From positions 1 through 64,000 of the forward strand of contig JAFGMI010000037.1 in NCBI GenBank assembly GCA_016927595.1: a stretch of DNA of 64,000 nt, given 5' to 3'. Origin of the DNA: Melioribacteraceae bacterium (GTDB lineage Bacteria > Bacteroidota > Ignavibacteria > Ignavibacteriales > Melioribacteraceae). The notes below the pieces were generated by a model. The model was not told where the DNA came from. It worked only from the letters and a program-made list of their open reading frames with translations, and did no database searches. The position numbers and the translations under genes were made by a program. Shown here piece after piece: positions 27,805 to 52,223 of this stretch. Every line of letters starts with the position of its first letter. Within the stretch, counting starts at the first letter, position 1.

Positions 27805-27812
27805 TATATTTG
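27805..27812 (+). promoter_or_regulatory. Possible -7 element of the xylB promoter
   Basis: TATATTTG matches the TAnnTTTG -7 consensus known from Bacteroidetes and would start transcription roughly 38 bases before the xylB ATG. No well-spaced -33 TTTG box accompanies it, so this is a weak call in AT-rich sequence. Confidence 0.25.
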
Positions 27813-27856
27813 TTCTAATATTTTACAAAAATTTCAAACCGGTTCAAAGGATTCAA

Positions 27857-29356
27857 ATGGACACGAAATATTTAATAGGATATGATATTGGCAGCTCGTC
27901 AATAAAAGCAAGTATAATAAATGCATTTACAGGCGAAACAATTTATTCAACTTTTTCACCCAAAGAAGAGATGAGCATTGATTCCCCCGAGATCGGCTGG
28001 GCTGAGCAGGATCCTGAAGTATGGTGGAATCATTTGGTAACTGCAACTCATGAGATGACGCAAAATTGTGAGATTGATAAAACAGCTATCAGCGGAATAG
28101 GAATATCCTACCAGATGCACGGACTTGTTTTAATTGATAAGGATAAAAAAGTATTACGCCCTTCAATTATCTGGTGCGACAGCAGAGCAGTCGAATATGG
28201 CGACAAAGCATTCGGCGAACTTGGTAATGAATATTGTCTTTCAAATCTGCTTAACTCCCCCGGCAATTTTACAGCCTCGAAACTTAAATGGGTAAAAGAG
28301 AACCAACCGGAAATTTATAATGATATATATAAAATTCTGCTTCCAGGAGATTATATAGCTCTTAAACTGACCGGGGAAGCAAGGACTACCATTTCGGGAC
28401 TATCGGAAGGAGTTTTCTGGGACTATAAAAAGGCAGATATCTCCACCGGACTGTTGGAATATTATGGATTAAAGAAAGAACATATTGCCGATATTGTCCC
28501 TACCTTCGGAATACAAGGCAGATTAACCGATGATGCTGCTGCAGAATTAAGCCTGGTGCCTGGAATAATAATCGGTTACAGAGCAGGCGATCAGCCGAAT
28601 AATGCTTTTTCGCTTAATGTGCTTAATCCAGGAGAAGTAGCTGCTACAGCGGGCACATCGGGAGTTATTTATGGTGTAACCGATAAAATCACATACGACC
28701 CGCAATCACGTGTTAACAGTTTTGCCCATGTAAATTATTCGAAGGACAATCCGATTCTTGGTGTGCTGCTCTGCATAAACGGTACAGGCATACTTAACAG
28801 CTGGATGCGCGGGACTATTCTTGATAAGAAGTACTCTTATCATGAAATGAATGAACTTGCTGAGAGTGTTCCGATTGGTGCAGACGGACTAATGACAATT
28901 CCTTTTGGCAACGGCGCTGAACGGGTTTTGGCTAATAAGGATGTGAGGGCACAATTTGTCGGTTTCAATTTTAACAAACATAAAACTGCACATATATTCA
29001 GATCGATTCAGGAAGGTATTGTTTATTCTTTCAAATACGGACTGGACATAATGCACGAAATGGGTCTGAATGTGAGTGTAGTCAGGGCTGGCAATGCTAA
29101 TATGTTCCTGAGTCCACTTTTCTGCGAAGCATTATCAAACACCTGCAATATCTCGATAGAACTTTACAACAGCGATGGTTCAATTGGAGCCGCAAGGGGC
29201 GCGGGTGTTGGTGCCGGAATTTATAAAGATTTATCCGAAGCATTTAACGGTTTCGAAAAAATAAGGACGTATACACCGGATAAACAAAAAGTTGAATTAT
29301 ATACAGCTGTTTATAAAAAATGGGAAATGCACCTGAATAATATTCTGAAAAACTAA
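27857..29356 (+). CDS. xylB: Xylulokinase (FGGY kinase)
   Basis: 499 residues. FGGY-family kinase that would phosphorylate D-xylulose to xylulose 5-phosphate for the pentose phosphate pathway. The reading frame extends 39 codons upstream, but I chose the ATG at 27857 because it follows AAAGGA and starts the canonical first phosphate loop YLIGYDIGSSSIKASI. Other landmarks are QDPEVWWNH, GIGISYQMHGLVLIDKD (substrate-contacting MHG), IIWCDSRA, GDYIALKLTG, and the ATP-site region VRAGNANMFLSPLFCEALSN. It is the only plus-strand gene within the saccharolytic part and is divergent from GH43. Xylulose is the best fit, though other FGGY substrates cannot be excluded. Confidence 0.85.
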   Translation: MDTKYLIGYDIGSSSIKASIINAFTGETIYSTFSPKEEMSIDSPEIGWAEQDPEVWWNHLVTATHEMTQNCEIDKTAISGIGISYQMHGLVLIDKDKKVLRPSIIWCDSRAVEYGDKAFGELGNEYCLSNLLNSPGNFTASKLKWVKENQPEIYNDIYKILLPGDYIALKLTGEARTTISGLSEGVFWDYKKADISTGLLEYYGLKKEHIADIVPTFGIQGRLTDDAAAELSLVPGIIIGYRAGDQPNNAFSLNVLNPGEVAATAGTSGVIYGVTDKITYDPQSRVNSFAHVNYSKDNPILGVLLCINGTGILNSWMRGTILDKKYSYHEMNELAESVPIGADGLMTIPFGNGAERVLANKDVRAQFVGFNFNKHKTAHIFRSIQEGIVYSFKYGLDIMHEMGLNVSVVRAGNANMFLSPLFCEALSNTCNISIELYNSDGSIGAARGAGVGAGIYKDLSEAFNGFEKIRTYTPDKQKVELYTAVYKKWEMHLNNILKN

Positions 29357-29377
29357 AAGTAGTCTAATAAATCTGTA

Positions 29378-30379
29378 CTAAAGATTATTAATCTCATTCC
29401 ATATATCCGGATGAACCTCGATACCATTTACTGAATTATGCTGAACAGAATTTAACACTCTCTCACCGGGGTATAATACTTCTTTCCGTTCATCAGCCGG
29501 CAATGAGGATTTTACATTAAGTATTATATCGTCAGCAATCATATCAATTTGTTTATACGACATGCTTTTTACTGGATCAAAACAAATAAAAACCTGTGAC
29601 ATCCCCGTATCGATATTTTTAACACCCAGATCATGTGTTGCATTTCCGCCGGATAAAATAGCAGCTATAAGATCAAATAATATTGCAAGTCCGGCACCTT
29701 TCCAGTATCCTATCGGAAGTGCCCGATAAGAATCAAAAATTGCAGCTGCGTTTTCGGTAAGGTTACCTGATTGATCATATCCTCCGGGATAAGGCAGCGG
29801 TCTGTTTTCTCTGCGATAATTTGCGAGCTGACCATATGAATACTGAGATAATGCAAGATCTACAACCACATGCCCTTTCTTTCTCGGTACTGCAAGCGTT
29901 ATTGGATTGTTGCCTATTTTAGGTTCTTTAGATTCCCAGGCGGGCATTATTGGTATTGTGTTTGTCCAGCAGATTAATATGTAGCCTGCCTCGGCTGCTT
30001 TCCACCCGTATGCGCCGGGACGCATCCAGTGATTTGAATTTTTTAATGTGACACAGCCTATACTATATTCTTTTGATAATTCAATTGCTCGGTCTGTAGC
30101 AAACCAGGCATTCAGCGGACCAGGTCCGTAATTAGCATCCCACTGTTCCCATGCTCCGTTAGATCTTATTAATGATGGTTTAGCTCCCGGTCGTACATAA
30201 CCATTTTTAACCATATCAATTAATTCCGGAAAGCGATTCGTTCCGTGTGAAGCTACTCCGGCAAGATTATTTTTTGCCATGATATCAGCACATAGTTCTG
30301 CATCGTCTGATTTAAAACCATTTTTTATAAGTTTGCCAGCTAACAAACTTTTTAGTTCTTCAAATTTTATAATCGGCAT
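29378..30379 (-). CDS. Ldh2/YiaK-family keto-acid dehydrogenase
   Basis: 333 residues of the malate/L-lactate dehydrogenase family that binds NAD(P)H in a non-Rossmann fold. GVASHGTNRFPELIDMV, CVTLKNSNHWMRPGAYG and GNNPITLAVPR are typical of the YiaK (2,3-diketo-L-gulonate reductase) branch. It would interconvert a 2-keto acid and 2-hydroxy acid of a sugar acid. It is the last gene of the uronate operon, 62 bases after the aldo/keto reductase gene. No other yia-type gene is nearby, so its step in uronate metabolism is unassigned. It ends 21 bases from the convergent xylB stop. Confidence 0.8.
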   Translation of the reverse strand: MPIIKFEELKSLLAGKLIKNGFKSDDAELCADIMAKNNLAGVASHGTNRFPELIDMVKNGYVRPGAKPSLIRSNGAWEQWDANYGPGPLNAWFATDRAIELSKEYSIGCVTLKNSNHWMRPGAYGWKAAEAGYILICWTNTIPIMPAWESKEPKIGNNPITLAVPRKKGHVVVDLALSQYSYGQLANYRRENRPLPYPGGYDQSGNLTENAAAIFDSYRALPIGYWKGAGLAILFDLIAAILSGGNATHDLGVKNIDTGMSQVFICFDPVKSMSYKQIDMIADDIILNVKSSLPADERKEVLYPGERVLNSVQHNSVNGIEVHPDIWNEINNL

Positions 30380-31458: not shown

Positions 31459-32220
31459 TTACCTTCCCATCCAACCGCCATCTACAGTAACAACCGACCC
31501 ATTTAAATAGTCCGATGCATCCGAGCATAGAAATACAACCGTTCCCATTAAATCTTCGGGAGTACCCCATCTGCCTTGCGGTATTCTATCCAGTATTGCT
31601 TTGTTACGTACAGAATCTTCCCGTAAAGCTTTTGTATTTGCAGTTGCAATATAACCAGGAGCTATTGCATTTACCGTAATGCCTTTCGATGCCCATTCAT
31701 TTGCAAATGCCATAGTAAGTTGTTTAATTCCTCCTTTTGAAGCTGCATATCCTGGCACTGTAATTCCACCCTGAAACGAAAGAAGCGAGGCAATGAATAC
31801 TACTTTTCCGTAGCCTCTCTGAAGCATTTCTTGTCCAATCTCCCTTGTAAGGACAAACTGAGCAGACAGATTAACCTCTATAACTTTATCCCAGTATTCA
31901 TCGGGATGCTCTGCAATGGGTTTTCTGAGAATTGTTCCGGCATTGTTTACGAGTATATCAATTTTAGGGTGTTCAGCTTTAACATTTTTAATAAAATTGT
32001 ACAGGTCATGCCGATCTGAAAAATCACAAACATATGAATAAAAATTTCTTCCGGTTTCCTTTATTAATTTCTCGCTTTCATCAAAATCGCTTTGATACGA
32101 CACAGTTATTATATCGGCTCCTGCCTGTGCAAGTGCGAGTGCGTAATACTGTCCGATGCCCTGGTTACCACCGGTTACCAGTGCAACTTTATCATTGAGC
32201 TTGAACTTATCAAGAATCAT
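31459..32220 (-). CDS. kduD: 2-dehydro-3-deoxy-D-gluconate 5-dehydrogenase
   Basis: 253-residue short-chain dehydrogenase that interconverts 2,5-diketo-3-deoxygluconate and 2-keto-3-deoxygluconate (KDG) with NAD(H). SDR landmarks are VTGGNQGIGQYYA, NNAGTILRKP, and the catalytic Ser-Tyr-Lys in FIASLLSFQGGITVPGYAAS plus KGG. The start MILDKFKLNDKVALVTGG and LRKPIAEHPDEYWDKVIEVN are typical of KduD. It is placed 19 bases after kduI, the enzyme that makes its substrate. Together they take the lyase-derived unsaturated monomer to KDG, for KdgK and Eda. Confidence 0.9.
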   Translation of the reverse strand: MILDKFKLNDKVALVTGGNQGIGQYYALALAQAGADIITVSYQSDFDESEKLIKETGRNFYSYVCDFSDRHDLYNFIKNVKAEHPKIDILVNNAGTILRKPIAEHPDEYWDKVIEVNLSAQFVLTREIGQEMLQRGYGKVVFIASLLSFQGGITVPGYAASKGGIKQLTMAFANEWASKGITVNAIAPGYIATANTKALREDSVRNKAILDRIPQGRWGTPEDLMGTVVFLCSDASDYLNGSVVTVDGGWMGR

Positions 32221-32239: not shown

Positions 32240-33073
32240 TTATTTTAGTTTATCCATAGGTATCCAGTCCATATCTTCAAATTCCTGATTCTCACCACCC
32301 ATAGCCCAGATGAATGAATAATTTTTTATACCGCAGCCTGCATGCATCGACCAGCTTGTGGAAAGAACTGCCTGCTTATCGCGGATAATTATATGCCTGG
32401 TTTCTTCCGGATCACCCAGAATATGGAACAGTAAAGAATCTTTTTCGATATTGAAATACATATAAACTTCAGAACGACGCTGATGCGTATGAGCAGGCAT
32501 CGTATTCCAGACACTTCCTGATTCAAGTTCCGTCAGTCCCATAACCAGCTGACAGGTAGGCATTGTACCGGGATGAATATATTTATATATAGTTCTTTTA
32601 TTCGCGCTTTCTGTAGTTCCGAGCTTTACTGGCGTGGATTTAGCAAAGCTTACATGAGTGGTAGGGTATTCTGTATGTGCCGGGTAACTGACAAAATAAA
32701 ACTGCGCAGGTTTATTTGCAGTGGAACTCTTGAATTCAATAACCTTAGACCCGCGTCCAATATACAATGCATCTTTATGATTCATTGTGTAAGTTTTTTG
32801 GTCAATTTTAATAGAACCTTTATCGCCTATATTAATAACGCCTATTTCTCTGCGTTGAGTAAAATATTCTGCAGCCATTTCTTTTTTAGATGCTGTTAAT
32901 TTTAACGGCTTTTTGGTCGGTACTGCAGAACCGGTTATTGATCGGTCAATATCCGAATAGACCATCGGGATTTTATTTTTTTGAAACAATGAATCAATTA
33001 AAAAACTATTTCGGATTTCATCAGTCGTCATTTTCCTGAATCCATTTGCATCAGGTGAATATCTTACTTCCAT
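32240..33073 (-). CDS. kduI: 5-keto-4-deoxyuronate isomerase
   Basis: 277 residues, the usual length. KduI isomerises 4-deoxy-L-threo-5-hexosulose uronate to 2,5-diketo-3-deoxygluconate. The cupin zinc site is seen in PAHTHQRRSEVYMYF (two His and Glu), with the fourth ligand in SWSMHAGCG. The N-terminus MEVRYSPDANGFRKMTTDEI and IDRSITGSAVP are family signatures. AGGAG precedes the start. It joins the pectin lyase products to KduD, its immediate neighbour. Confidence 0.95.
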   Translation of the reverse strand: MEVRYSPDANGFRKMTTDEIRNSFLIDSLFQKNKIPMVYSDIDRSITGSAVPTKKPLKLTASKKEMAAEYFTQRREIGVINIGDKGSIKIDQKTYTMNHKDALYIGRGSKVIEFKSSTANKPAQFYFVSYPAHTEYPTTHVSFAKSTPVKLGTTESANKRTIYKYIHPGTMPTCQLVMGLTELESGSVWNTMPAHTHQRRSEVYMYFNIEKDSLLFHILGDPEETRHIIIRDKQAVLSTSWSMHAGCGIKNYSFIWAMGGENQEFEDMDWIPMDKLK

Positions 33074-33112: not shown

Positions 33113-34564
33113 TTAGACTATATATGTTGATGAAGCTGTATCCCCGCCTCTTCCGGTCCAGTTAGTATGGAAAAATTCGCCCCTGGGTTTATCGATTCTC
33201 TCATACATATGAGCACCAAAATAATCCCTCTGAGCCTGAAGAAGATTTGCCGGAAGTCTTTCGTTTCTGTATCCATCAAAATAGTTCAGGGCTGTTGACA
33301 TCGCCGGAATCCAAATGCCGCTGCTTACTGAAGTGGCAACAACCCTTCGCCATGATTCCTGAGCACTTTCAATTTTCCCCTTGAAGAACGGATCCAGAAG
33401 CAGATTAGTTAAGGCAGGATTTTTGTCGAATGCTTCTTTAATCTTACCCAGAAATACTGATCTTATGATACAACCGCCGCGCCACATCAGAGCTATTCCG
33501 CCGTAATTTAAATTCCAATTAAACTCTTCGGCGGCATATCGCATCAGTACATAACCCTGTGCATACGATACCAGTTTACTTGCATAAAGCGCATTCTTAA
33601 TATCATTTATAAATTGCTTTTTATCACCTTTAAATTCTGGTTTGGGTCCTTTTAATATTCTGGATGCTTCAACCCTGTCGTTCTTCATTGCGGATAAACA
33701 TCTTGCATATACTGCTTCACCGATAAGTGTAAGCGGAATGCCAAGTTCCAGTGAAACAATACCTGTCCATTTGCCCGTTCCTTTCTGACCCGCGGTATCC
33801 AGGATCTTGTCAACAAGCGGCTGACCATCCTCATCCTTAAAGGCAAGAATATCACGGGTAATTTCTATTAAATAGCTGTCCAGGTCGCCTTCATTCCATT
33901 CTTTGAAAACTTCGTGCATATCATTGGCTGACATTCCCAGTAAATCTTTCATAATCTGATATGCTTCGGTTATCAACTGCATATCGCCGTACTCTATCCC
34001 GTTATGTACCATTTTGACGAAATGCCCCGCACCGTTCTCACCTACCCAATCGCAGCAGGGTGTTCCGTCCTCAACTTTTGCAGCAATTGACTGAAAGATA
34101 GGTTTAACATGTTCCCATGCTTCGGGAGAGCCGCCAGGCATAATAGACGGACCTTTAAGAGCCCCTTCCTCACCTCCGGAAACACCGGTACCGATGAACA
34201 GAAAGCCTTTCTCTTCAAGATATTTTGTTCTTCTTATACTGTCCGGGAAATGCGAGTTTCCGCCGTCGATTATTATATCTCCTTCCTCAAGAAACGGAAT
34301 AACCTTTTCTATAAAATCATCAACAGGTTTACCGGCTTTAACCATAAGCATTACTTTTCGTGGTCTCTTTAACTTCTTAATCATCTCTTCTATAGTGTGA
34401 AACCCTATAATATTTTTATCTTTTGCCCTGCCATTAATAAAATTATCTACCTTCTCAACAGTTCGGTTGTAAACTGCAACCGTATATCCATGACTTTCCA
34501 TATTCAGCACTAGATTTTCGCCCATAACAGCAAGACCAACGAGTCCGATATCAGCTTTACTCAT
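33113..34564 (-). CDS. gnd: 6-phosphogluconate dehydrogenase, decarboxylating
   Basis: 483 residues, full length for the long form. It converts 6-phosphogluconate to ribulose 5-phosphate and CO2 with NADP+. The N-terminal Rossmann fold has IGLVGLAVMGENLVLN and VYNRTVEK, where the NRT after the second strand favours NADP. Then come GGNSHFPDSIRRTKYL, GVSGGEEGALKGPSIMPGG, the active-site Lys in HFVKMVHNGIEYGDMQL, and the all-helical C-terminal domain with the tail FHTNWTGRGGDTASSTY. It lies 20 bases after the LarA-like gene inside the uronate operon, not with zwf or pgl. That points to 6-phosphogluconate being formed here from a sugar acid rather than from glucose 6-phosphate. Confidence 0.95.
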   Translation of the reverse strand: MSKADIGLVGLAVMGENLVLNMESHGYTVAVYNRTVEKVDNFINGRAKDKNIIGFHTIEEMIKKLKRPRKVMLMVKAGKPVDDFIEKVIPFLEEGDIIIDGGNSHFPDSIRRTKYLEEKGFLFIGTGVSGGEEGALKGPSIMPGGSPEAWEHVKPIFQSIAAKVEDGTPCCDWVGENGAGHFVKMVHNGIEYGDMQLITEAYQIMKDLLGMSANDMHEVFKEWNEGDLDSYLIEITRDILAFKDEDGQPLVDKILDTAGQKGTGKWTGIVSLELGIPLTLIGEAVYARCLSAMKNDRVEASRILKGPKPEFKGDKKQFINDIKNALYASKLVSYAQGYVLMRYAAEEFNWNLNYGGIALMWRGGCIIRSVFLGKIKEAFDKNPALTNLLLDPFFKGKIESAQESWRRVVATSVSSGIWIPAMSTALNYFDGYRNERLPANLLQAQRDYFGAHMYERIDKPRGEFFHTNWTGRGGDTASSTYIV

Positions 34565-34584
34565 TTTTCGTTACTCCTTTAAAA

Positions 34585-35865
34585 TTATTTTTTGTTCTCA
34601 AATTTATTTTTATATGACCATAATCCTAGAGCAGGATTTGATATATAATATATGCTTTCCCCATCAGGCATTGTATTAAATCCATCTCTCAAATTCTGAA
34701 TATCATATTTTTTCAGCATTGAACTTAAATCTGCATAATTAAAATTCACACTCTCAATTTCCTCCTTCGTAAGGTGACCCGGACAGTATGTAATTTTAAA
34801 CCGGTTTTCAGACGAACCGTGAATCAGATGTGCAGCAGCACTCAGGTTATTACGCAGTTCTTCATTTTCATCAACAAACTTCAGTATTTCAGGAGTTGTT
34901 ACATAACCATATTTTCTGATCAGCCTGTCAATTTCCACATCTTCCCCGAATTCACGCAGTCCGGGTGCAAGTACAATCAACTCTCCATTATCGGCAATTG
35001 CCATCCTGGTTCTGTAGATACTCTTATTGCCGAGCCATGTGCTTTTAAATTCATGAGGATCGAGATATACCACAACCTTGTCTAAAGGTTCATCCAGCAT
35101 TTGAAAATTAACCTTAAGAGATAAATCCGCGGCTAGTTTGAATACTTCGTAATCGTCTCCTATATACAGACCTCTCATAACTAATCTATTTTCATCGTCT
35201 TTCCCGATTACTGTCAGCACATATATAACCGGCAAATGCTTTGCAAAATTATCCGAAGCATAATTCAGTACTTTTCTTACGGGCGTATCAGCTCTGCCCA
35301 TCATTCTCTCAAGACCGTAAACAGCTCCCAGGAAATGACTTTTATTAATGCCATCCTGACCACCTGTGCCTACAAAAATATTTTTGTTGTGGTTTGCCAT
35401 ACCTACTACCTCATGCGGCACGACCTGTCCTATGGAAAGTATTAATTCATGTCCTCCCTGTTCAAGCAGTTTATTAACCTGGGCGGGCCAGCTGTAATTT
35501 ACCTTACCCTCAGAGACATCATAAACAAATTCTTCAGGTACAATACCGAGTGTAACAAGATCCTCTTTCCACTTGTGTACCCTGAATAAATCTCGTGGGA
35601 TGTTGCCGAACATTTCTTCAATCTCGTTTTCACTCATAGGAGAGTGGGTTCCCAAAGCAGGCAGTATATCGGTTAATTTGTCGCTGTAATATTCATAAAC
35701 ATATCGTGTCAGTTTGCCTGCCATTGAGTGATATCTTGTAAAATCCGGAGGGATTGCAAGCACTTTTTTTCTGTTTCCCAGTTTTTCGAGAGAGGAAAAC
35801 AGCCCTTCTTTTATCTCATTTTGACTTAAGGAAATATTTTCAGAACCTTTCGCAAAATATATCAT
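34585..35865 (-). CDS. LarA-superfamily nickel-pincer epimerase, candidate mannonate/gluconate 2-epimerase
   Basis: 426 residues of the LarA (DUF2088) family, whose known members racemise or epimerise 2-hydroxy acids with a nickel-pincer nucleotide cofactor. The family residues are all present: Asp41 and Arg44 in PPDFTR, His74 in ALGTHSPM, His151 in VPHEVVGM, Lys161 in ANHNKNIF (the lysine that holds the cofactor in LarA) and His177 in NKSHFLG (the nickel ligand). The spacing from the second His to Lys (10) and to the third His (26) equals that in LarA. Its start overlaps the kinase stop as ATGA, and gnd follows after 20 bases. With uxuB making mannonate upstream and gnd using 6-phosphogluconate downstream, epimerisation at C2 between mannonate and gluconate is the best inferred activity. 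A lactate racemase role fits the operon poorly. Confidence 0.85.
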   Translation of the reverse strand: MIYFAKGSENISLSQNEIKEGLFSSLEKLGNRKKVLAIPPDFTRYHSMAGKLTRYVYEYYSDKLTDILPALGTHSPMSENEIEEMFGNIPRDLFRVHKWKEDLVTLGIVPEEFVYDVSEGKVNYSWPAQVNKLLEQGGHELILSIGQVVPHEVVGMANHNKNIFVGTGGQDGINKSHFLGAVYGLERMMGRADTPVRKVLNYASDNFAKHLPVIYVLTVIGKDDENRLVMRGLYIGDDYEVFKLAADLSLKVNFQMLDEPLDKVVVYLDPHEFKSTWLGNKSIYRTRMAIADNGELIVLAPGLREFGEDVEIDRLIRKYGYVTTPEILKFVDENEELRNNLSAAAHLIHGSSENRFKITYCPGHLTKEEIESVNFNYADLSSMLKKYDIQNLRDGFNTMPDGESIYYISNPALGLWSYKNKFENKK

Positions 35866-36941
35866 CGCTTTACTCTCGCATTACCTTCCCAGATACTCCA
35901 AACCATTTCTTCATCTGCAGGAACAGCATAATCGGTCAGGAATGTTGTAGCTAATGCTCCGGTAGCCCAACCGAATTGTATCCATTTTTCGGGAGCCCAG
36001 TTTTTCAGAATACCATACAGCAGACCGCCTACAAATCCATCACCGCCTCCTATTCTATCAAGCACACTTATTTCACGCGGCATAACCAGATGCCAGTTTT
36101 CATCTTCGAGCATTATTCCGCCCCACATATGTTTATTTACGCTGATAACTTCTCTGAGCGTTGTTGCAAAAACTTTTGCGTTTGAATACTTTTGCTTAAC
36201 TCTGCTTATCATTTCTTTAAAGCTCTCAATTTTCGCTTCAATATTCTCTCCACCAGGTTCAGGACCTTCTATCCCGAGACAAAGCTGGAAATCTTCTTCA
36301 TTACCAACAAGTATATCTGATAGAGAAGCTATTTCGGCGAATGCTTCGCTTAATTCTTTTTCTCTTCCCTTCCAGAAAGAAGCTCGGTAGTTCAGATCGA
36401 AAGAAATGGCTGTACCGTGTTGTTTTGCTTTTCTGGAAATTTCGAGACAAAACTGACTGGTTTCCGGCGAGAGTGCTGCAATTAATCCCGATAAGTGGAC
36501 AATCTGTACTCCTTCATCAGCGAAAATTCTGTCTAAATCGAAATCCTTAACATTCAATGTCCTTCCTACTTCTCCTGCTCTATCATTATGAACTCTGGGA
36601 CCTCTGCTTCCTGAACCGCTGTCTGCAATATTAAATTGATGGCGATAACCCCAGGGACCGCCCTGCTCAACTTCAGGTCCTTCGTAATCCATGTTTCTGC
36701 TTTTAAGATTGCTTTTTATCAATTTCGATATCGGACTGCCCTTCACGAAAGCAGTTAAAACTTTTACCGGCATACCTAAAAAGGAAGCAATACTGGCAAC
36801 ATTAGTTTCTGCGCTTGTAGTCTGCATTCTGAAAGTTTCGCTGCTATGGACCGGTTGTCCATCTATAGGTGAAATTCTAATTCCGATGCTCGTGGGCACC
36901 AGGATGGAGTACTTACAATTCTGTTTTAATTTAATTCCCAT
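35862..36941 (-). CDS. PfkB-family sugar(-acid) kinase, divergent
   Basis: 359 residues of the ribokinase/PfkB family. The ATP and catalytic motif is intact (LDRIGGGDGFVGGLLYG, with catalytic Asp in GGGDG). The usual N-terminal GG-x-N-A sugar-binding motif is altered to TTSAETNVASIASFLG, unlike the GGGEANVAVAL of the KdgK encoded at 51189-52223. Thus the cell has a standard KDG kinase elsewhere, and this enzyme may use another acid. Lying between uxuB and the LarA-like gene and before gnd, it is a candidate gluconate kinase producing 6-phosphogluconate. The alternative is a second KDG kinase. It has an AAAGGAA ribosome site and a 4-base ATGA overlap downstream. Confidence 0.82.
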   Translation of the reverse strand: MGIKLKQNCKYSILVPTSIGIRISPIDGQPVHSSETFRMQTTSAETNVASIASFLGMPVKVLTAFVKGSPISKLIKSNLKSRNMDYEGPEVEQGGPWGYRHQFNIADSGSGSRGPRVHNDRAGEVGRTLNVKDFDLDRIFADEGVQIVHLSGLIAALSPETSQFCLEISRKAKQHGTAISFDLNYRASFWKGREKELSEAFAEIASLSDILVGNEEDFQLCLGIEGPEPGGENIEAKIESFKEMISRVKQKYSNAKVFATTLREVISVNKHMWGGIMLEDENWHLVMPREISVLDRIGGGDGFVGGLLYGILKNWAPEKWIQFGWATGALATTFLTDYAVPADEEMVWSIWEGNARVKR

Positions 36942-36976
36942 TCTATTCCTTTATACTTGTGTCTGTTAATAATTAT

Positions 36977-37825
36977 TCAAACACCTGAGTAGGCGTTAAA
37001 TCCACCATCTACCGGAATTACAACTCCTGTAACAAATTTTGAGATATCGGAAACAAGATAAAACAATGTTCCCAATAAATCTTCAGGTTTGCCGAATCTG
37101 CCAAGAGGAGTTCCGGAAATAATTTGCTGTCCCCGCGGAGTAAGTTCCTTAGTTTTCTCATCAACGAGTAAGAATTCGTTCTGACTGGTGAGGAAAAAGC
37201 CCGGTGCAATTGCGTTAACTCTTACATTAGCTTTTGCAAGATGAACAGCCAGCCATTCGGTAAAATTATTAATTGAAGCCTTGGCGGCTGAATAAGCCGG
37301 TATTTTTGTTAACGGTCTGTACGAGTTCATCGACGAAATATTTATTATGGATCCGCCTCTGCCTAGCATATCCTCGGCAAATACCATTGTCGGCAATACA
37401 GTACCAAGAAAATTAAGATCAAAGACGTGTTTAAAACCATCCAGCTCAAGACCGAAGAAAGAACCATTGAGATCCGATAGATTCTCCGGAGTCATAAACG
37501 TATTTTTTGTCGTTGCATTCGGTGCATTTCCTCCCGCACCATTAATCAGGACATCTATCTGACCGAATTTATCATTGATTTCTTTTTTCGCATCGACAAG
37601 AGTTTCTTTCTTGAGGACATTTGCTAAAATGCAATGAGCCGGTCCGCCTGATTCCTTTATAAGATTGACTGCACATTCATCGCACCGCCCCTGTTTATAG
37701 TCTATCACTGCAACCTTTGCACCGAGACCGAGCAATCCGACGGCAAATTTGTTGCCGAATACTCCACATGCTCCTGTAATTACACATACTTTATCTTTAA
37801 TATCGCTGAAACTGCTATTACTCAT
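36977..37825 (-). CDS. uxuB: SDR-type fructuronate reductase (mannonate oxidoreductase)
   Basis: 282-residue short-chain dehydrogenase. It would reduce D-fructuronate to D-mannonate with NAD(P)H. Landmarks: VITGACGVFGNKFAVGL nucleotide loop, INGAGGNAPNATT, and catalytic Ser-Tyr-Lys in INISSMNSYRPLTKIPAYSA plus AKAS. The long insertion around LNGSFFGLELDGFKHVFDLN matches the SDR-type UxuB known from Bacillus (YjmF) and Thermotoga rather than the unrelated E. coli UxuB. It follows the tagaturonate epimerase gene by 13 bases, the order expected if fructuronate is its substrate. Confidence 0.85.
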   Translation of the reverse strand: MSNSSFSDIKDKVCVITGACGVFGNKFAVGLLGLGAKVAVIDYKQGRCDECAVNLIKESGGPAHCILANVLKKETLVDAKKEINDKFGQIDVLINGAGGNAPNATTKNTFMTPENLSDLNGSFFGLELDGFKHVFDLNFLGTVLPTMVFAEDMLGRGGSIINISSMNSYRPLTKIPAYSAAKASINNFTEWLAVHLAKANVRVNAIAPGFFLTSQNEFLLVDEKTKELTPRGQQIISGTPLGRFGKPEDLLGTLFYLVSDISKFVTGVVIPVDGGFNAYSGV

Positions 37826-37838
37826 AAATGCACCTTTT

Positions 37839-39407
37839 TTATTCCTGTTCGAACGGTTTTAAGTGTTTTCTAAAGTGGTTTACCAATAATTCATAATGTG
37901 TTTCTTCATTGTTCCTGAGGCAGTTTAAGATTTCATCCTTATATTTATTGCTGCCCGTCTCATTTTTCACTGTAAGCACCTTCCCGAATGCTACATGAAG
38001 TATTTGTCTAACATCATTTGAGTTGAAAAGCTCTGCAAGTTCAGCGTCGGTATAGTCTGACGCATCTTTAACATTATTTGCATCTGCTGAAACATGATAA
38101 GTTTTTTTCTCATCCTCATAGAGAGAAACTGAAAAGTCAAGTATATCTCTGAACAGTTCAGGCTGCTTGACAGCAACTACCCTCAACGCCTCAAGGTAAC
38201 TTGTTCCTGCTGTCTTTACATGCGTAACAGCATTTTTAATCCCACCTATTACTCTGTAAGCGGAAAATTTATCACTTCCGGAATGCAGGCTTATCTTGTA
38301 AGTGCCAAAGTGATTTATTATTGCAACGTGCTTTTCATATTCAGTCCTGAATATTTCCGGATCACCTTTGTAATCAATCCCCTTCTCAAAATCACCAACA
38401 AATCTCGGTGCCAGACTTATAAATCTCACACCAAGTCTTACAAGTTCATTTGCAAAAAAGTAATGCTCGAACGGCGTAGTAACAGATTCGGTTTCATCAA
38501 CCGATACTTCAACTTCAAACGGCTGAGCATTGTAGTTGTTTTTCAGATATTCATAAAGCGTCTTTATATGCAATACAGCATTACCATATTTAACATAAGC
38601 GCGTTTGAGACTTAATTCGTCGACGCTTATACTGAACTGATCATCGACTATTATCGGCTGGTCGAGATAGCGTTTAACTGCTGATTGTAGTTTATCGGAT
38701 AGTTTTCCCCAGTTAACCGAAGAAAACTTTTGTGTAAGTTCTGCTTCATTATAATTATCAGCATTATTATCGACGTACTCGCTGGGATCGAATGTAAACA
38801 TAGTGTATCCGGCATTTGCCATAAGGTCTATATCGGCGGTTGTTTTTAAATGATCCGCATCCGAACCCCATGTATTTTTATAACCTTCCTGCATAACCGA
38901 CCATACGGCTGCATCCATTACCTCATCGGGAGTTCTGTTCGTACGGGTCAATTCTCTTATCGACTGCTGTGCAAGAATCGGCAGAAAAGATGAGTTACCA
39001 AGTGATCTTAAATGTGCAGCATTTGCAAGCCCAAGCCTGTCACCGAATCCAAATGAATTTTTTAATCCGATTACTTTGGGGTTCAGATAATCAATATTTT
39101 TCTGGAGTATTTTTCTGTTCGATGTATTCAGCAGGCATTTAATTATAACAAAACCGTCTGAAGCATAAGTGTCCGAAAATTTTATTTTGTTGAAATCCTC
39201 CCAATCGGGCAAACTGTTTTTATCGTAAGCAATAAAAAAGAATTTTTCCGTGTTGCAGAGTCCGAAAAAAAGTATTGAGTTTTTCAATTCTTTAAGTGAT
39301 TTCGGATATACTTTTATCTCAGGACAACCATCTGTTTTATAAGTTAACAGTACGTTGGAGATGCCGCTTGCTCTCCCTATTTTTTCCTTTAGAAGATAGT
39401 ATGACAT
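37839..39407 (-). CDS. uxaE: Tagaturonate epimerase
   Basis: 522 residues of the UxaE family (PF16257 as I recall), which epimerises D-tagaturonate to D-fructuronate and thus replaces the UxaB/UxaA branch. The recognisable block is SFGFGDRLGLANAAHLRSL, followed by FLPILAQQSIRELTRTNRTP, VMDAAVWSVMQEGY, and YKISLHSGSDKFSAY further on. AAAGGCG precedes the ATG. It sits between uxaC (9 bases upstream) and uxuB (13 bases downstream), exactly in pathway order. Metal ligands are probably among the conserved His and Asp of these blocks, which I cannot assign individually. Confidence 0.9.
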   Translation of the reverse strand: MSYYLLKEKIGRASGISNVLLTYKTDGCPEIKVYPKSLKELKNSILFFGLCNTEKFFFIAYDKNSLPDWEDFNKIKFSDTYASDGFVIIKCLLNTSNRKILQKNIDYLNPKVIGLKNSFGFGDRLGLANAAHLRSLGNSSFLPILAQQSIRELTRTNRTPDEVMDAAVWSVMQEGYKNTWGSDADHLKTTADIDLMANAGYTMFTFDPSEYVDNNADNYNEAELTQKFSSVNWGKLSDKLQSAVKRYLDQPIIVDDQFSISVDELSLKRAYVKYGNAVLHIKTLYEYLKNNYNAQPFEVEVSVDETESVTTPFEHYFFANELVRLGVRFISLAPRFVGDFEKGIDYKGDPEIFRTEYEKHVAIINHFGTYKISLHSGSDKFSAYRVIGGIKNAVTHVKTAGTSYLEALRVVAVKQPELFRDILDFSVSLYEDEKKTYHVSADANNVKDASDYTDAELAELFNSNDVRQILHVAFGKVLTVKNETGSNKYKDEILNCLRNNEETHYELLVNHFRKHLKPFEQE

Positions 39408-39416
39408 TTTTCGCCT

Positions 39417-40835
39417 TTAAAGTTTATATGCTTTTTTAACCAAGTTATATGTCAGGTCTTCAGCAATCTTTTTTGCCTCGCTTATAGAGATGATATGCCG
39501 TGCTACAAGTCCAGCTAAAAAATTTGCATCAATTCTTCTGGCTACATCATGTCTTGCCGGAATTGATACGAAAGCCCTTGTGTCGTCATTGAATCCGACG
39601 GTATTATAAAAACCGGCGGTCTCAGTAACCATTTCTCTGTAACGTGTTATGCCTTCAATACTGTCGTGAAACCACCAGGCAGGACCGAGTTTCATGGACG
39701 GATAATGTCCCGCGAGAGGTGCAAGTTCTCTGGAGTAAGTGGTTTCATCCAGAGTAAACACAATTACAGTAAAATCAGGATTATTACCATACTTATTAAG
39801 CAGTGGCTTAAGATTTTTTGTAAACTCAGTTTGAACCGGAATGTCGCATCCTTTATCCAATCCGAACCTGTTGAATACAAACTCATTATGATTTCTGAAA
39901 GAACCGGCATGTATCTGCATTACCAGCCCGTCTTCAGTACTCATCCTTGCCATTTCCATAAGCATGTGCGCAGTAAATAACCCGGCATCTTTTGAATCAG
40001 CTTCGCCGTTAAGTGCTTTATCGAATATTTCTGAAGCCTGTTTATCGGTGAGCTCAATCGTGAAAGGTGAATAAACACCATGATCTGTTGAAGTCGCACC
40101 TAATGTCTTGAAGAACTTCCGTCTTTTTTTCAAAGCTTCAATGTATTGTTCATAGTTTTTTATTTCAAAGTCAACTGCCAGAGAAAGAGCGCTTATGTTA
40201 TTTTTCCAGTTTTGAACTGAAATATCTGTTACGGCATCCGGACGAAAGCATGGAACTATCCTGCCTTTCCACCCTGATTCCAGTATCTTCTGATGGTTGC
40301 CAAGATTGTCTGATGCAGCATCAGTGGTCGACAATACTTCAATTCCGAACCTTTCGAACAAGCTTCTCGGTAAAAATTCCGTTGAATTTATTTTTTCGTT
40401 TAATTCATCGTATAACCTTTGGGCATTATCGCCATTAAGCTTTTCATTTATCCCAAAAACTTCCGTAAACTCATAATCCAACCATACACCGGATGGAGTC
40501 CCGTTAAAGAGATAATAATTTTCGGCAAATATCTGCCATATTTTTCTTGGATCCGTCTCAACCTCAGTTCCGTCAATGGTTGGTATGCCGAGAGCTTCTA
40601 TTTTAATTCCCTGTGAGTACAGCATCCGAAATATATAATGGTCGGGGATTAAGAAGAGTTGAGCCGGATTCGGAAATGGTTTATTATGAACAAATATTGA
40701 CGGATCTACATGACCATGAGGGCTGATAATTGGTAATTTTGCAATTTTACTATAAATTTCCACTGCAATTTTTCTTATCTGCGGATCAGGATTAAAAAAT
40801 CTGTTAGGGTTTAATTCAAACCTGTTATTATCCAT
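39417..40835 (-). CDS. uxaC: Uronate isomerase
   Basis: 472 residues, normal length. It isomerises D-galacturonate to D-tagaturonate (and glucuronate to fructuronate) in the cytoplasm. It is an amidohydrolase-fold enzyme with the metal-binding HGHVDP near residue 39. Further landmarks are DHYIFRMLYSQGI, ILSTTDAASD-like EVLSTTDAASDNLGNHQ, FRNHNEFVFNRFG and PAWWFHDSIEGITRYREM, and near the end FNDDTRAFVSIPARHDVARR. It is the first gene of a ten-gene leftward operon with gaps of 62 bases or less. Confidence 0.95.
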   Translation of the reverse strand: MDNNRFELNPNRFFNPDPQIRKIAVEIYSKIAKLPIISPHGHVDPSIFVHNKPFPNPAQLFLIPDHYIFRMLYSQGIKIEALGIPTIDGTEVETDPRKIWQIFAENYYLFNGTPSGVWLDYEFTEVFGINEKLNGDNAQRLYDELNEKINSTEFLPRSLFERFGIEVLSTTDAASDNLGNHQKILESGWKGRIVPCFRPDAVTDISVQNWKNNISALSLAVDFEIKNYEQYIEALKKRRKFFKTLGATSTDHGVYSPFTIELTDKQASEIFDKALNGEADSKDAGLFTAHMLMEMARMSTEDGLVMQIHAGSFRNHNEFVFNRFGLDKGCDIPVQTEFTKNLKPLLNKYGNNPDFTVIVFTLDETTYSRELAPLAGHYPSMKLGPAWWFHDSIEGITRYREMVTETAGFYNTVGFNDDTRAFVSIPARHDVARRIDANFLAGLVARHIISISEAKKIAEDLTYNLVKKAYKL

Positions 40836-42357: not shown

Positions 42358-44604
42358 TCAATAATCGATGACTCTTAACTTAATTATTTTACCACAAGAA
42401 AATTTAAATTCATTAAGATCAATTATCCTGCCGTATTCATCTTCTAACGGCATACTGCATATTACAGCTACCGTCTTATCATCAATATTTGCAATTTCAA
42501 AATAATCATTATGTCTTGTGATCAATAAATCAGTTTTATCTGAGAATAGTATTTCTCCGGTTTCTGTTTGGATTTTCCCGCATGAAAAAGTAATTCTTCG
42601 TTTATCTGATTGTAAATGAATCCTATCCTTATTTTTTTCAGCCAGAGTAATGATCCACTCACCAACCTTCAGGTCGGACATATGGCGGTCTATAATCATG
42701 CGTTCATCGAAATGTGCGAAGGGAAATAACAAAGTTATAAAATCATGTTCATCCTTCGATGCAGTATTAAACACACTAGTACCCTTCCCCCTGAAATCAT
42801 CCTGATCAATATTAATGATTGAATTGTTCATCTGCACAATATCAAGTCCGCTGCCGTTCTGGAAAGTAGATCTTAAATGTATATTGTTTAACTCAATTGA
42901 ATAATGCCCCTGCCAGATCTGCTGATAATTATGTGGTGATTCTGATTTAAAACTATCCTTTACAATCCAGAATCCGTCTTTAATAAATATTACTTTGCGT
43001 TTGTATTCCACTCCGATATTTTCGTAAGCATTATGTGAACCGATAAAGACATCATAATTCTTATCAGTCTTCCAAAATCTTGTAACAGGATCAGGCAGAT
43101 CCATCCATTTACCGAAACCTGAACCTCCTTTGTTAGCTTTCCACAACGAAGCCTGAGGGATTGAATCTACTAATGCAACATTCTTTACAAATGAACTTTT
43201 AAAGAAACGGTAATCATCCAGGAAGTATCTTACCTGATAATTCGGCAAAACACAATTGCCGTTCGAATACGCTGCAATACCAAGCATATCGGCATGCTGA
43301 TGATCGGGCTTGCGATCCGATTTCCCGGCATTTATAACCATATAATCGCTTCGGGAAGACCAACCGTTCCGCATAACGTAGTACCCGGTATTAACTAAAC
43401 TCGTTGATTCATAATCCGGAACCGTCGGTTTTAGGTTTTTCAAATATGAATATAATTCAGGTTTAATGAACCAGTAATAAGATTCCGATACGGTATTTTC
43501 AGCAAAGTATTTATATAATTGATCGTTAAATATCAGCGCACCGAGCAGCATCACCGATCCGATAGTATTGAATTCTCCCCATGGTTCGTCAGTATCATCC
43601 TGTAAAACAGGTAATGTTCCGTCAGGTTGAGCAAGCAGTGCCAGTGATTTAAACATTGAGCGAAACTTTTCAGTGTAATTATCAGGTAATACTATTTCAT
43701 TTAAATCGGCGAGCATAAAGATATAAAAATAATTATCTATATCACCTTTATGGTAATGGACTGATCTCTCGAACTGGAAACCATCCGGATTAATTTCTTC
43801 ATTAAGATGACGCGTTAACATGTTGATCGAATGATGGAACCACTTTTTACCTGTATCGAATTCGGGAAACAGTATTGAGATCATTGCAAGAGACATCAGA
43901 CCTTTGGTGTGGTGGTTACCGGAATTAAATTTTTTAGTGCTTTCAAACAGATTCGCCCCGTGCATTAAAAAGGTTTTAATCAGAGTAAGCTGATGTTCAG
44001 TTGAGTAGTTATCAGATGCCAAAAACATATTATGAACAAACAACCAGTTGAATACCCTGTAGCCTGCTCTGAAGTATTCAAAAACATCGTTTCCTCCGGT
44101 TTCGACTTCCAGCCTGCTGTACTTATCATTCAGCGACTTGACCTGATCGATAAAGTAGTTTAGATAAAAGTAATTTTCGTTTTCGTAATAGTACATGAAG
44201 GCAATATCAAGCATCTTATGCTGACGTGCCAGATGTCTTAGTTGATAAGGAGTAATTAACGCACCGGACTTTGATTTAAACGGTAATTTCCATTCGGTCT
44301 CAGCATTGAACAATTTAATATGCTCGTTTGCTCTTTGATAATGCTTCAGTTCACGGTCTTTATACAATCTTTTATATTCATCAAATCTTTCATGGAAGTT
44401 TCTGTGATCGAAGAAAAATCTTTCACCCATTTTATCTTTAAAATGACTGATAAACGAATTTTTACTTACTGATGAGTCGGTGTTTGCGGAGAATATTTCC
44501 AATAATTCTTCATCTGATAATAACCTTGTGGCGGGGATCTGCCCTAATATATTTAGCGAAGAAATTATTAGTAATAAGTGAACAAATTTTAGTTTTCTCA
44601 TCAT
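42358..44604 (-). CDS. Secreted heparinase II/III-family polysaccharide lyase
   Basis: 748 residues with signal peptide MMRKLKFVHLLLIISSLNILG. The helical barrel (about 60-380) includes NSGNHHTKGLMSLAMISILF and INPDGFQFERSVHYHKG. The C-terminal beta-sheet domain (about 400-745) opens with GYYVMRNGWS and carries DHQHADMLGIAAYSNG, the His-rich signature of heparinase II/III proteins. This layout is shared by lyases of alginate, heparin and other uronans, so the exact CAZy family is uncertain. Its start overlaps the phosphoesterase stop by four bases (ATGA). Context favours a uronic-acid polysaccharide. Confidence 0.82.
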   Translation of the reverse strand: MMRKLKFVHLLLIISSLNILGQIPATRLLSDEELLEIFSANTDSSVSKNSFISHFKDKMGERFFFDHRNFHERFDEYKRLYKDRELKHYQRANEHIKLFNAETEWKLPFKSKSGALITPYQLRHLARQHKMLDIAFMYYYENENYFYLNYFIDQVKSLNDKYSRLEVETGGNDVFEYFRAGYRVFNWLFVHNMFLASDNYSTEHQLTLIKTFLMHGANLFESTKKFNSGNHHTKGLMSLAMISILFPEFDTGKKWFHHSINMLTRHLNEEINPDGFQFERSVHYHKGDIDNYFYIFMLADLNEIVLPDNYTEKFRSMFKSLALLAQPDGTLPVLQDDTDEPWGEFNTIGSVMLLGALIFNDQLYKYFAENTVSESYYWFIKPELYSYLKNLKPTVPDYESTSLVNTGYYVMRNGWSSRSDYMVINAGKSDRKPDHQHADMLGIAAYSNGNCVLPNYQVRYFLDDYRFFKSSFVKNVALVDSIPQASLWKANKGGSGFGKWMDLPDPVTRFWKTDKNYDVFIGSHNAYENIGVEYKRKVIFIKDGFWIVKDSFKSESPHNYQQIWQGHYSIELNNIHLRSTFQNGSGLDIVQMNNSIINIDQDDFRGKGTSVFNTASKDEHDFITLLFPFAHFDERMIIDRHMSDLKVGEWIITLAEKNKDRIHLQSDKRRITFSCGKIQTETGEILFSDKTDLLITRHNDYFEIANIDDKTVAVICSMPLEDEYGRIIDLNEFKFSCGKIIKLRVIDY

Positions 44605-45782
44605 TTATCTGCTTTTATGCTGTCAATTAGTTCCCCGTCAGCGCCATAAGATAATATTTCCATTGAATCCCCGGAAAATTCAATAATGTGGAATGCCTGT
44701 AAATTATCCATCATCACTTCGTGCAATTTCTTAAAAGTAGAATTCAATTCATACTGTTTAGTACCTGCAACCGATGTGAGGTAAATAGTGCCGCGCTCAC
44801 CTGTGTGGACCAGTTCATTATTCCGTAAAGGGAAAGTTCTGCCGAAAGCATGATCGTGACCATTCAGAACAAGATCGACTTCATGCTTATCTATGACCGG
44901 CAGCATTATCTCACGCAATTCTGTATTATCCCGTCCTCTGGCAATAGAGTAAACAGGATAATGAAAACAAATAACTTTCCACTTAGCCGAGGATTCAGCC
45001 AGTGTTTTATCCAGCCATTCGGCTTGTAAGTCAAGCGGACCTTTTGAATCAAGAATTATTATCAGAACGTTGTTGTATTTGATTTTGTAGCATGTCTCCG
45101 GAAGCAGATCAACGCCGTTTTCAGGAAATGTAAAAGTTGGTCTCCACAGTTTTGTTATTGAGTTATCAGGACCTCTGTATTCATGGTTGCCGGCAGCAGC
45201 AATTACCGGCATTGTTCTGAATATCCAGCCTCCGCTTTCAAACAACTCACCCCATAATGAATCGTCAAGACCATCGGTAACCAGATCTCCTCCGAATAAA
45301 AAGAAAGCTGAATTAGGGGATGTTTTATATGCCTCTCTTATTACTCTGGATCCCTGCGATAATATATCGTTCTGAACATCACCAAAATAGGTAAATCTGG
45401 TATTCTCAAATTCTGTGTCTGCTGTACTGAAATGATTCCATTCCGACCAGCTATCAGCGTCACCAACACGATACGCATATTTTTTACCTGGTACCAAGTC
45501 AGAAATCACAACGGAATAAGTATAGACTATATTTACCGAATCTATCAAGACACTATCTGTGTCTGCATTGTATGAAGCAGACAATGATAAATCTTTAACC
45601 GGTGAGACAGAAGCCTGGAGAATTTGCGTCCTGGGTTGCGAAGATTTAACATAATTCCTCCATGTAACTGCAATTGAATTAGACGGAGTTTCTGTTAAGT
45701 TAAGTATAATCCTTTCCGGTTCCGATTGCGCAAGCAAAGAAATGCAAAGCAGAAAAACCCAAAAACTAATAATCAGTTTCAT
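44601..45782 (-). CDS. Secreted purple-acid-phosphatase-like metallophosphoesterase
   Basis: 393 residues with signal peptide to about residue 18 (LLAQ). Residues 22-125 form the purple acid phosphatase N-terminal Fn3-like domain (TPSNSIAVTWRN, PGKKYAYRVGD). The calcineurin-like domain has all five metal blocks: FTYFGDVQND, LFGGDLVTDG, AAAGNHEYRG, CFHYPVYS and LVLNGHDHAFGRTFP. A secreted phosphatase or phosphodiesterase of unknown substrate is expected. It is fused into the operon by a 4-base overlap with the lyase gene downstream and 4 bases of spacing to the transporter gene upstream, which is an unusual neighbour for uronan lyases. Confidence 0.88.
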   Translation of the reverse strand: MKLIISFWVFLLCISLLAQSEPERIILNLTETPSNSIAVTWRNYVKSSQPRTQILQASVSPVKDLSLSASYNADTDSVLIDSVNIVYTYSVVISDLVPGKKYAYRVGDADSWSEWNHFSTADTEFENTRFTYFGDVQNDILSQGSRVIREAYKTSPNSAFFLFGGDLVTDGLDDSLWGELFESGGWIFRTMPVIAAAGNHEYRGPDNSITKLWRPTFTFPENGVDLLPETCYKIKYNNVLIIILDSKGPLDLQAEWLDKTLAESSAKWKVICFHYPVYSIARGRDNTELREIMLPVIDKHEVDLVLNGHDHAFGRTFPLRNNELVHTGERGTIYLTSVAGTKQYELNSTFKKLHEVMMDNLQAFHIIEFSGDSMEILSYGADGELIDSIKADK

Positions 45783-45786
45783 AAAT

Positions 45787-47055: not shown

Positions 47056-47111
47056 GTACTTCTCCAGATTTAATTCAAAGAGATGAAATTATTTTAATAA
47101 CTAATGCTGCA

Positions 47112-47450: not shown

Positions 47451-47462
47451 TAACTACCTCCT

Positions 47463-51188: not shown

Positions 51189-52223
51189 TTATCTTTCTAC
51201 TCTTCCCGAACCACCGCTCTCAATAAGTTTATTAACTTCATCCTTCGATACCAGGTTGAAATCCCCCGGTATTGTTTGCTTAAGGCATGAAGCCGCAACT
51301 GCAAATTCAAGAGCTTCTTTCGAATTGTTGAGTTCTAACATACCGTAAATCAAACCGCTCGCAAACGAATCTCCGCCGCCAACCCTGTCGATAATCTGAA
51401 TATCATATTTTGAAGATCTGTAAGGCGGGTTGCAGTCTTTATCATCATACATCAGTGCGCTCCAGCCGTTTCTCGAAGCTGAAAAGCTTTCCCTGAGTGT
51501 GATGGCTACCGACTTGAATGAAAATTTATTTTTTAAATCTTCGGCAAGTCTGAAGTAACCTTCCTCATCAATTTCAGCTTTATGCACATCGGTTTCCCCC
51601 GCTTTCATCCCCAGACTTTTTTCAGCATCCTCTTCATTTGCAATACACACATCAACATGTTCCATCAACGGTATCATTATCTTTTGAGCATCGCTTTCGG
51701 TCCACATTTTTTTTCTGAAATTAAGATCACAGCTTATTGTCAATCCTTTTTCAGAAGCAGTCTGACAAGCCATTCTTAATGCAGCCTGTGCTTTGCTACC
51801 CAGAGCGGGAGTAATGCCAGTCCAGTGAAACCAGTCCTTGCCTTCGAATATTTCATCCCATCTGAACTCACCGGGATCGGCTGTGCTGATTGCAGAATAG
51901 TTGCGGTCATAGATAACTTTCGAAGGTCTCTGCGAGGCGCCCGTTTCGAGAAAGTAAATCCCTATTCTTTCGCCTCCTCTGACGATGTAACCGGTATCGA
52001 CTCCGAATTTGCGCAATAAATTAATTGCGGATTGCCCGATTTCATGTCTGGGCAGTTTTGTAATATAATAGCTGTCCAAGCCATAATTGGCTAGCGCAAC
52101 TGCAACATTAGCCTCTCCTCCACCGAATGTAACATCAAAGTTATCTGATTGCACGAACCTTTTGAATCCCGGCGTTGAGAGCCTGAGCATAACTTCACCA
52201 AATGTTACAACCTTCCTGACCAT
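51189..52223 (-). CDS. kdgK: 2-keto-3-deoxygluconate kinase
   Basis: 344 residues, PfkB family. It phosphorylates KDG to KDPG. N-terminal sugar motif FGGGEANVAVALANYGLDSY and the KDG-specific-looking GIYFLETGASQRPSKVIYDR are intact; the ATP motif is DRVGGGDSFASGLIYG with catalytic Asp. It lies three bases downstream of the KDPG aldolase gene, the standard pair. It serves both pectin (via KduI/KduD) and alginate (via the SDR) branches. Confidence 0.93.
   Translation of the reverse strand: MVRKVVTFGEVMLRLSTPGFKRFVQSDNFDVTFGGGEANVAVALANYGLDSYYITKLPRHEIGQSAINLLRKFGVDTGYIVRGGERIGIYFLETGASQRPSKVIYDRNYSAISTADPGEFRWDEIFEGKDWFHWTGITPALGSKAQAALRMACQTASEKGLTISCDLNFRKKMWTESDAQKIMIPLMEHVDVCIANEEDAEKSLGMKAGETDVHKAEIDEEGYFRLAEDLKNKFSFKSVAITLRESFSASRNGWSALMYDDKDCNPPYRSSKYDIQIIDRVGGGDSFASGLIYGMLELNNSKEALEFAVAASCLKQTIPGDFNLVSKDEVNKLIESGGSGRVER

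Follow-up and report, generated by a model that had tools for sequence, protein, structure and literature searches.

The genome of a Melioribacteraceae bacterium (Bacteroidota, Ignavibacteria; assembly GCA_016927595.1, contig JAFGMI010000037.1) harbours a six-gene operon which probably encodes a route from galacturonate to ribulose 5-phosphate via a LarA-type epimerase and 6-phosphogluconate dehydrogenase (Gnd). The operon occupies positions 33,113 to 40,835 on the minus strand of the window, i.e. the entire stretch of 64,000 nucleotides analysed here, and comprises, in pathway order, uxaC, uxaE, a gene for a short-chain dehydrogenase/reductase (SDR), a gene for a PfkB-family kinase, larA and gnd. 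Galacturonate would be converted to D-mannonate by UxaC, UxaE and the SDR reductase, D-mannonate inverted at C2 to D-gluconate by a LarA homologue (LarAH) of group 18, and D-gluconate phosphorylated to 6-phosphogluconate by the PfkB-type kinase. Gnd would then yield ribulose 5-phosphate, CO2 and NADPH, the latter repaying the reductant spent at the SDR step. Carbon would thereby enter the pentose phosphate pathway through a branch that coexists with mannonate dehydratase (UxuA) and with 2-keto-3-deoxygluconate (KDG) kinase and 2-keto-3-deoxy-6-phosphogluconate (KDPG) aldolase encoded elsewhere. The substrates assigned to LarA and to the kinase, and the flux through this branch, are predictions. 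The sequence from mannonate via gluconate and 6-phosphogluconate to ribulose 5-phosphate, including its redox balance, had been put forward in a preliminary description of the window, and gene content and LarA residues support it as a reading.

Family models score strongly for all operon proteins except the kinase, whose PfkB membership is clear although its sequence has diverged. The uronate isomerase UxaC (39417..40835; NF002794, glucuronate isomerase, 543.7 bits, cut-off 387; PF02614) would form tagaturonate, which the tagaturonate epimerase UxaE (37839..39407; PF16257, 555.5 bits) would convert to fructuronate. Reduction of the latter to mannonate, i.e. the UxaD/UxuB role, falls to an SDR-family D-mannonate oxidoreductase (36977..37825; NF006132, 377.6 bits, cut-off 281); the operon's "UxuB" is thus not of the Escherichia coli type, which is a long-chain protein. 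There follow the predicted gluconate (or mannonate) kinase (35862..36941; PF00294, 68.2 bits, cut-off 25.8), the predicted D-mannonate/D-gluconate 2-epimerase LarA (34585..35865) and Gnd (33113..34564; TIGR00873, 786.5 bits, cut-off 426.7). From uxaC to gnd the intergenic gaps measure 9–35 bases, and the kinase gene and larA overlap by 4 bases. The six gene calls of the preliminary description, with their place, strand and order, agree with the open reading frames and the family scores.

The operon LarA is assigned to LarAH group 18 by model NF052594 (NPN_18_hexonate, "nickel-dependent putative hexonate epimerase") with 676.2 bits against a cut-off of 500. Its sole solved relative by sequence, even at an E-value of 10 in the structure search, is 4nar, which is GntE2 of Thermotoga maritima (PMC7583248). 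Alignment with 4nar bears out the earlier claim that all cofactor and catalytic residues are retained: the seven residues for binding of the nickel-pincer nucleotide (NPN) and for catalysis are kept as D41, R44, H74, H151, K161, H177 and K281, aligned with D38, R41, H73, H154, K164, H180 and K287 of GntE2 (numbering from PMC7583248) and, through GntE2, corresponding to D72, R75, H108, H174, K184, H200 and K298 of Lactobacillus plantarum LarA (PMC7583248). All seven are invariant in 72/72 group-18 rows, one pair of which is identical. The loop pair of gluconate epimerases that follows the second catalytic histidine (E, then V or S; E155 and S156 in GntE2, PMC7583248) is present as E152 and V153, likewise in 72/72 rows. 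A further feature of GntE-type specificity is an A-H pair in place of LarA W358 and T359 (PMC11770544). An A345-H346 motif, invariant among the group-18 rows, resembles this pair, but its correspondence to the LarA positions is uncertain, and PMC7583248 equates W358 with GntE2 N348, which aligns with N340 of the window protein and not with A345-H346. Groups 19 and 20 were assayed and epimerise D-mannonate and D-gluconate; group 18 shares specificity features with both, and its hexonate substrate is a supposition in that source (PMC7583248).

The arrangement of the operon genes is not due to chance. In a sample of 395 genomes from the phylum, 41 had a LarA match at E <= 0.001, and 22 of these, including the source genome, exceeded the group-18 cut-off. 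Counting genes within 5 kb of larA and on the same strand, gnd accompanies larA in 20/22 genomes, the SDR gene in 20/22 and a PfkB kinase gene in 17/22. The 17 kinases in this slot fall into two types (5 of the window type, 12 of a type termed C3), with the gene standing after gnd in two loci, and in 2/22 loci a PF00365 protein takes the slot. A transketolase cluster (one member scanned) follows gnd in 4/22 loci. At least 581 relatives were met among named genomes, and the best 80 loci were kept; of these, 57 have a same-strand gnd no more than 5 kb from larA, and 54 have the SDR gene so placed. Where at least 5 kb were available on both sides of larA (39 named loci), the counts are 31/39 for gnd, 31/39 for SDR and 27/39 for the slot kinase. 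Six of the best seven named LarA loci stem from Ignavibacteria or its families or orders.

The operon kinase falls below the cut-offs of the KDG-kinase models (102.8 vs 440 bits and 29.2 vs 400 bits). These cut-offs alone do not decide the matter, because the second PfkB protein of the window, which is KDG-kinase-like (51189..52223, minus strand; NF041633, 547.8 bits; NF041332, 244.2 bits), misses its cut-offs as well. The latter is encoded next to a KDPG aldolase (52227–52892; PF01081) and appears to be the better candidate for the KDG-kinase role. In a tree of 28 rows, with kinase genes sampled from larA loci and the source genome only, the operon kinase and 17 other larA-locus kinases form a clade of 18 rows (support 99/96). 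The KdgK side (100/99) holds the KDG-kinase-like protein of the window, three locus kinases, T. maritima KdgK (2afb) and two solved chains on long branches. A long inner branch (3.5) leads to the window-type kinases, a situation in which, according to a warning of the tree program, the position may be spurious. The two sides also differ in a motif, which reads GGGDG(F/Y) in the 18 slot kinases and G(A/G)GDSF in 2afb and the KDG-kinase-like group of the window. Both kinds are present side by side in three loci (L061, L063, L065), as they are as separate genes in the window. Three further kinases group between the clades; one of them (L082) adjoins a larA outside group 18, and membership in the 18-row clade is hence not shared by all kinases next to larA. 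Conversely, a C3-type kinase inside the clade accompanies larA and gnd in a locus (L083) whose LarA is not of group 18. The slot kinases would hence constitute PfkB lineages apart from KDG kinase, a new trait of this kind of operon, and gluconate is their presumed substrate, with mannonate as the alternative.

A number of observations weigh against the proposed route. A single UxuA-family gene (NCBIfam name UxuA) is present genome-wide, outside the window (C56:47974–49134), adjoining a second SDR mannonate oxidoreductase gene and genes for a tripartite ATP-independent periplasmic (TRAP) transporter, and in 8/80 named loci uxuA lies inside the operon itself. LarA is therefore not simply a replacement for UxuA, and the "dehydratase-free" character formerly ascribed to the route is rejected for the source genome as well as at odds with these relatives. 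No kinase of either kind was recognised in 3/22 group-18 loci (L066, L079, L080), one of which (L066) belongs to a genome of the same genus as the source genome (G059), and the slot kinase went unrecognised in 12 of the 39 well-flanked named loci. A same-strand gnd closer than 5 kb is lacking from 23/80 named loci, some of them on short contigs. The best solved match of the operon kinase is the KDG kinase 2afb. No assay of a group-18 enzyme was found in the literature passages on LarAH groups. Finally, the known genes for NPN synthesis are missing from the source genome (3.85 Mb, 59 contigs, 99.79 % complete): LarC had no match, and the LarB and LarE models matched, below their curated cut-offs, other proteins only (PurE for LarB; NAD synthase, GMP synthase and MnmA for LarE).

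With respect to UxuA in the relatives, the family was not found in 16/22 group-18 genomes and is present in 6/22; enolase-type mannonate dehydratases were not part of this search, so "no UxuA" does not equal "no mannonate dehydratase". One further genome (G322), with a LarA fragment below the cut-off, also lacks UxuA.

Phosphorylation might precede epimerisation, with the PfkB protein acting as mannonate kinase and LarA as 6-phosphomannonate 2-epimerase, an order that is unlikely but has a physiological counterpart. Extracts of Lactobacillus suebicus did not convert mannonate to gluconate and formed, with ATP, 6-phosphomannonate, which was interconverted with 6-phosphogluconate (PMC6978723); the position of the kinase gene between the SDR gene and larA matches this order. 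However, the assayed LarA-family GntE enzymes use free mannonate, groups 18, 19 and 20 have been put together by their specificity features (PMC7583248), and the epimerase of L. suebicus is known as an activity of extracts (PMC6978723).

A role of the operon kinase as a further KDG kinase for KduI/KduD and UxuA, with LarA acting on another hexonate or an aldarate and gnd providing general pentose supply, is improbable. Besides the match to 2afb, such a role would fit the presence of kduI and a kduD-like gene downstream in the operon, a KDPG-aldolase cluster (one member scanned) in 9/22 loci, and the suggestion of a uronic or aldaric acid as a possible substrate of group 19 (PMC7583248). It is countered by the separate KDG-kinase-like gene beside the KDPG aldolase gene in the window and by the separation of the slot kinases from the KdgK side in the tree, a separation qualified by the very long branch of the window type. 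The co-occurrence of a C3-type kinase with larA and gnd in L083, a locus whose LarA is not of group 18, also argues against it, a point tempered by the L082 kinase outside the clade.

The missing cofactor genes bear on the preferred reading, since the epimerase should need NPN, which, if the route is read correctly, must be taken up or made otherwise. The preliminary description had counted an absence of larB, larC and larE against the route, and none of the three was found in the genome. As LarA is conserved in many genomes without LarB and LarC, their absence is not read as a refutation. LarC occurs in 14/41 genomes that match LarA and in 7/22 that exceed the group-18 cut-off; the 15 without it in the latter set include three single-contig assemblies (G120, G184, G298). 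LarB exceeds its cut-off in the same 7/22 genomes and in 12 of 32 genomes tested, whereas LarE was searched in the source genome alone. Among 50 of the 80 named loci, chosen for spread, LarC was detected for 26 and not for 24; completeness is not reported for these genomes, most of which are metagenome assemblies by title, and the samples overlap by one genome or more, as L114 repeats G089. In the genomes of three named loci (L109, L128 and L138, the latter two from Carboxylicivirga), counted as larC-bearing, the LarC match consists solely of two adjacent pieces that reach from model position 1 to about 230 of 375, which would fit a divided gene or the presence of its first half alone.

Several other accounts were rejected. 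Loss of LarC in assembly gaps is unlikely given the 15/22 genomes without it, the three single-contig assemblies among them and the absence of LarB from exactly the same 15. As to a frameshifted larC, the search reads through stops; it returned two-piece matches in G405, G415 and G423 and nothing in the source genome. A single loss of larC is rejected, because a quick tree of LarA requires 14 or more changes in the larC state, of which 5 are forced by supported branches. Nor did LarA change residues where LarC is missing: twelve checked positions are identical in 39/39 larC-less and 33/33 larC-bearing rows, and the columns differing most between the two sets (103, 330 and 323 in the numbering of the window protein) lie outside them.

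Four pairs of larC-less genomes, each pair within one genus, give a larA dN/dS of 0.039–0.072, rough values as dS amounts to 1.2–1.9; for the wider pairs window/L066 and L077/L078 synonymous sites are saturated, so that pN/pS (0.23 and 0.24) is given in place of dN/dS. That LarA is not a working nickel-pincer epimerase here, being a relic or using another or no cofactor for a different reaction, is very improbable: the missing LarB, LarC and LarE and the way round offered by uxuA would favour it, but a dN/dS of 0.04–0.07 in the larC-less pairs and the intact operon contradict a relic, and the NPN-binding and catalytic residues (as defined in PMC7583248), invariant in larC-less as in larC-bearing rows, contradict another cofactor. 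A conserved LarA under purifying selection is thus found in many genomes without a known cofactor route. Nor is the puzzle confined to group 18, since genomes with neither LarC nor a LarB above its cut-off (G167, G207, G246, G270 and G179, with loci L084, L088, L085, L087 and L081, respectively) also carry LarA homologues from outside this group.

Homologues of larB, larE and larC without larA have been reported for about 15 % of the genomes referred to in PMC11796402. Genomes with LarA only and genomes with LarBCE only look like users and producers of the cofactor, and uptake is offered as a proposal. In a large share of the bacteria with a working LarA, NPN may be obtained without LarBCE, either by uptake of NPN or a precursor from the community or by a second biosynthesis, an explanation considered plausible though short of an even chance. 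No report of LarA without LarBCE was found in the text passages and selected sections covered by the literature search. If NPN supply without LarBCE is real, the uronate operon of the Ignavibacteriota would be a clean place to demonstrate it. The conservation of LarA in many genomes without the known synthesis genes renders the cofactor question testable, and this question accounts for most of the interest of the present finding.

The route itself is not new, contrary to the preliminary description. It was preceded by a proposal for T. maritima in 2012, by the mannonate assay of GntE2 in 2020 (PMC7583248) and by a variant in L. suebicus (PMC6978723). The UxaR-regulated locus aldH-pelB-gnd-uxaRED-gntEK of T. 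maritima (Rodionova et al. 2012, via PMC3750489 and PMC6978723) brings together, like the present operon, UxaE, UxaD, GntE and Gnd, and the conversion of mannonate via gluconate to 6-phosphogluconate was proposed for it. Another operon of T. maritima holds kdgA-kdgK-uxuB-uxuA, and here, too, uxuA and the genes for KDG kinase and KDPG aldolase lie elsewhere. The kinase of T. maritima is encoded by gntK, whereas the present locus has a PfkB protein and no gntK gluconokinase; T. maritima KDG kinase 2afb shares the PfkB family with the operon kinase but is placed across a supported branch and carries a different motif. GntE of T. maritima belongs to LarAH group 20 and not 18, and T. maritima possesses LarC (matched as a search control), which the source genome lacks. 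More broadly, LarAH19 (GntE1), LarAH20 (GntE2) and LarAH15 are D-gluconate 2-epimerases (PMC7583248, PMC11770544) of the same superfamily as the operon LarA, with the same catalytic and cofactor residues; the specificity features shared with group 18 extend to LarAH19 and LarAH20, the hexonate reaction of group 18 being supposition only (PMC7583248). L. suebicus likewise starts with the isomerase route and proceeds from mannonate to 6-phosphogluconate and, via Gnd, redox-neutrally to ribulose 5-phosphate, but it phosphorylates first, its epimerase is known as an activity of extracts and its pentose phosphates enter the phosphoketolase branch (PMC6978723). Judged from sequence, the operon differs from these precedents in LarAH group, kinase family and missing NPN genes.

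As a result, LarA homologues of group 18 are placed in a conserved operon predicted to lead from uronates to the pentose phosphate pathway, and PfkB lineages are named as candidate gluconate or mannonate kinases. The route from galacturonate to ribulose 5-phosphate would be redox-neutral, a property described as "highly interesting" for engineering the conversion of pectin-rich feedstocks (PMC6978723).

Downstream of gnd, co-directional genes continue with gaps of 19–62 bases: kduI, a kduD-like gene and genes for an aldo-keto reductase and a 3-dehydro-L-gulonate 2-dehydrogenase. The first, for 5-dehydro-4-deoxy-D-glucuronate isomerase (32240..33073, minus strand; NF002091, 414.7 bits, cut-off 250), is separated from gnd by 39 bases, and the second, for a putative 2-dehydro-3-deoxy-D-gluconate 5-dehydrogenase (31459..32220, minus strand; NF005390, 347.4 bits), scores below its cut-off of 369. 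A scan for promoters and terminators was uninformative (39 and 10 found vs 43.8 and 9.7 on average after shuffling). At the distal end of the operon, the 3-dehydro-L-gulonate 2-dehydrogenase gene (minus strand) faces an FGGY kinase gene (plus strand) within 27740–30379, and the two perhaps form a side branch for another sugar acid. The FGGY kinase (27740–29356) is unsupported as a gluconokinase, being nearer to XylB and reaching 163.5 with the gntK model against a cut-off of 648.55. The surroundings in the window encode functions in polysaccharide degradation and uronate use (glycoside hydrolases GH28, GH43 and GH88, alginate-lyase-type and heparinase-type proteins, a KDG-kinase-like protein and KDPG aldolase). 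In particular, region 42358–54150 contains genes for heparinase II/III-type, oligoalginate-lyase-like and alginate lyase proteins, a major facilitator superfamily (MFS) transporter, the KDG-kinase-like protein and KDPG aldolase, which suggests use of alginate or other uronate polymers besides pectin.

Further genes recur near larA in the relatives. The PF00365 protein in the PfkB slot, of the pyrophosphate-phosphofructokinase kind, is encoded at L067:11616–12896 (minus strand) and in L070, and one occurs within 5 kb of larA on its strand in 11/80 named loci; it might in turn substitute for the usual kinase or act in steps of the pentose phosphate pathway. A gene for a hydrolase of the haloacid dehalogenase (HAD) family adjoins larA at L067:10638–11528 (minus strand), with the same cluster represented in L070, L072 and L076, a similar protein at L126:9033–9992 and another, just below the cut-off, at L105:8952–9923. 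A PdxB-like 2-hydroxyacid dehydrogenase is encoded within 5 kb of larA in 27/80 named loci, often between larA and gnd (e.g., L061:6683–7903, minus strand), and is replaced in L108 and L117 by an oxidoreductase of the Gfo/Idh/MocA family.

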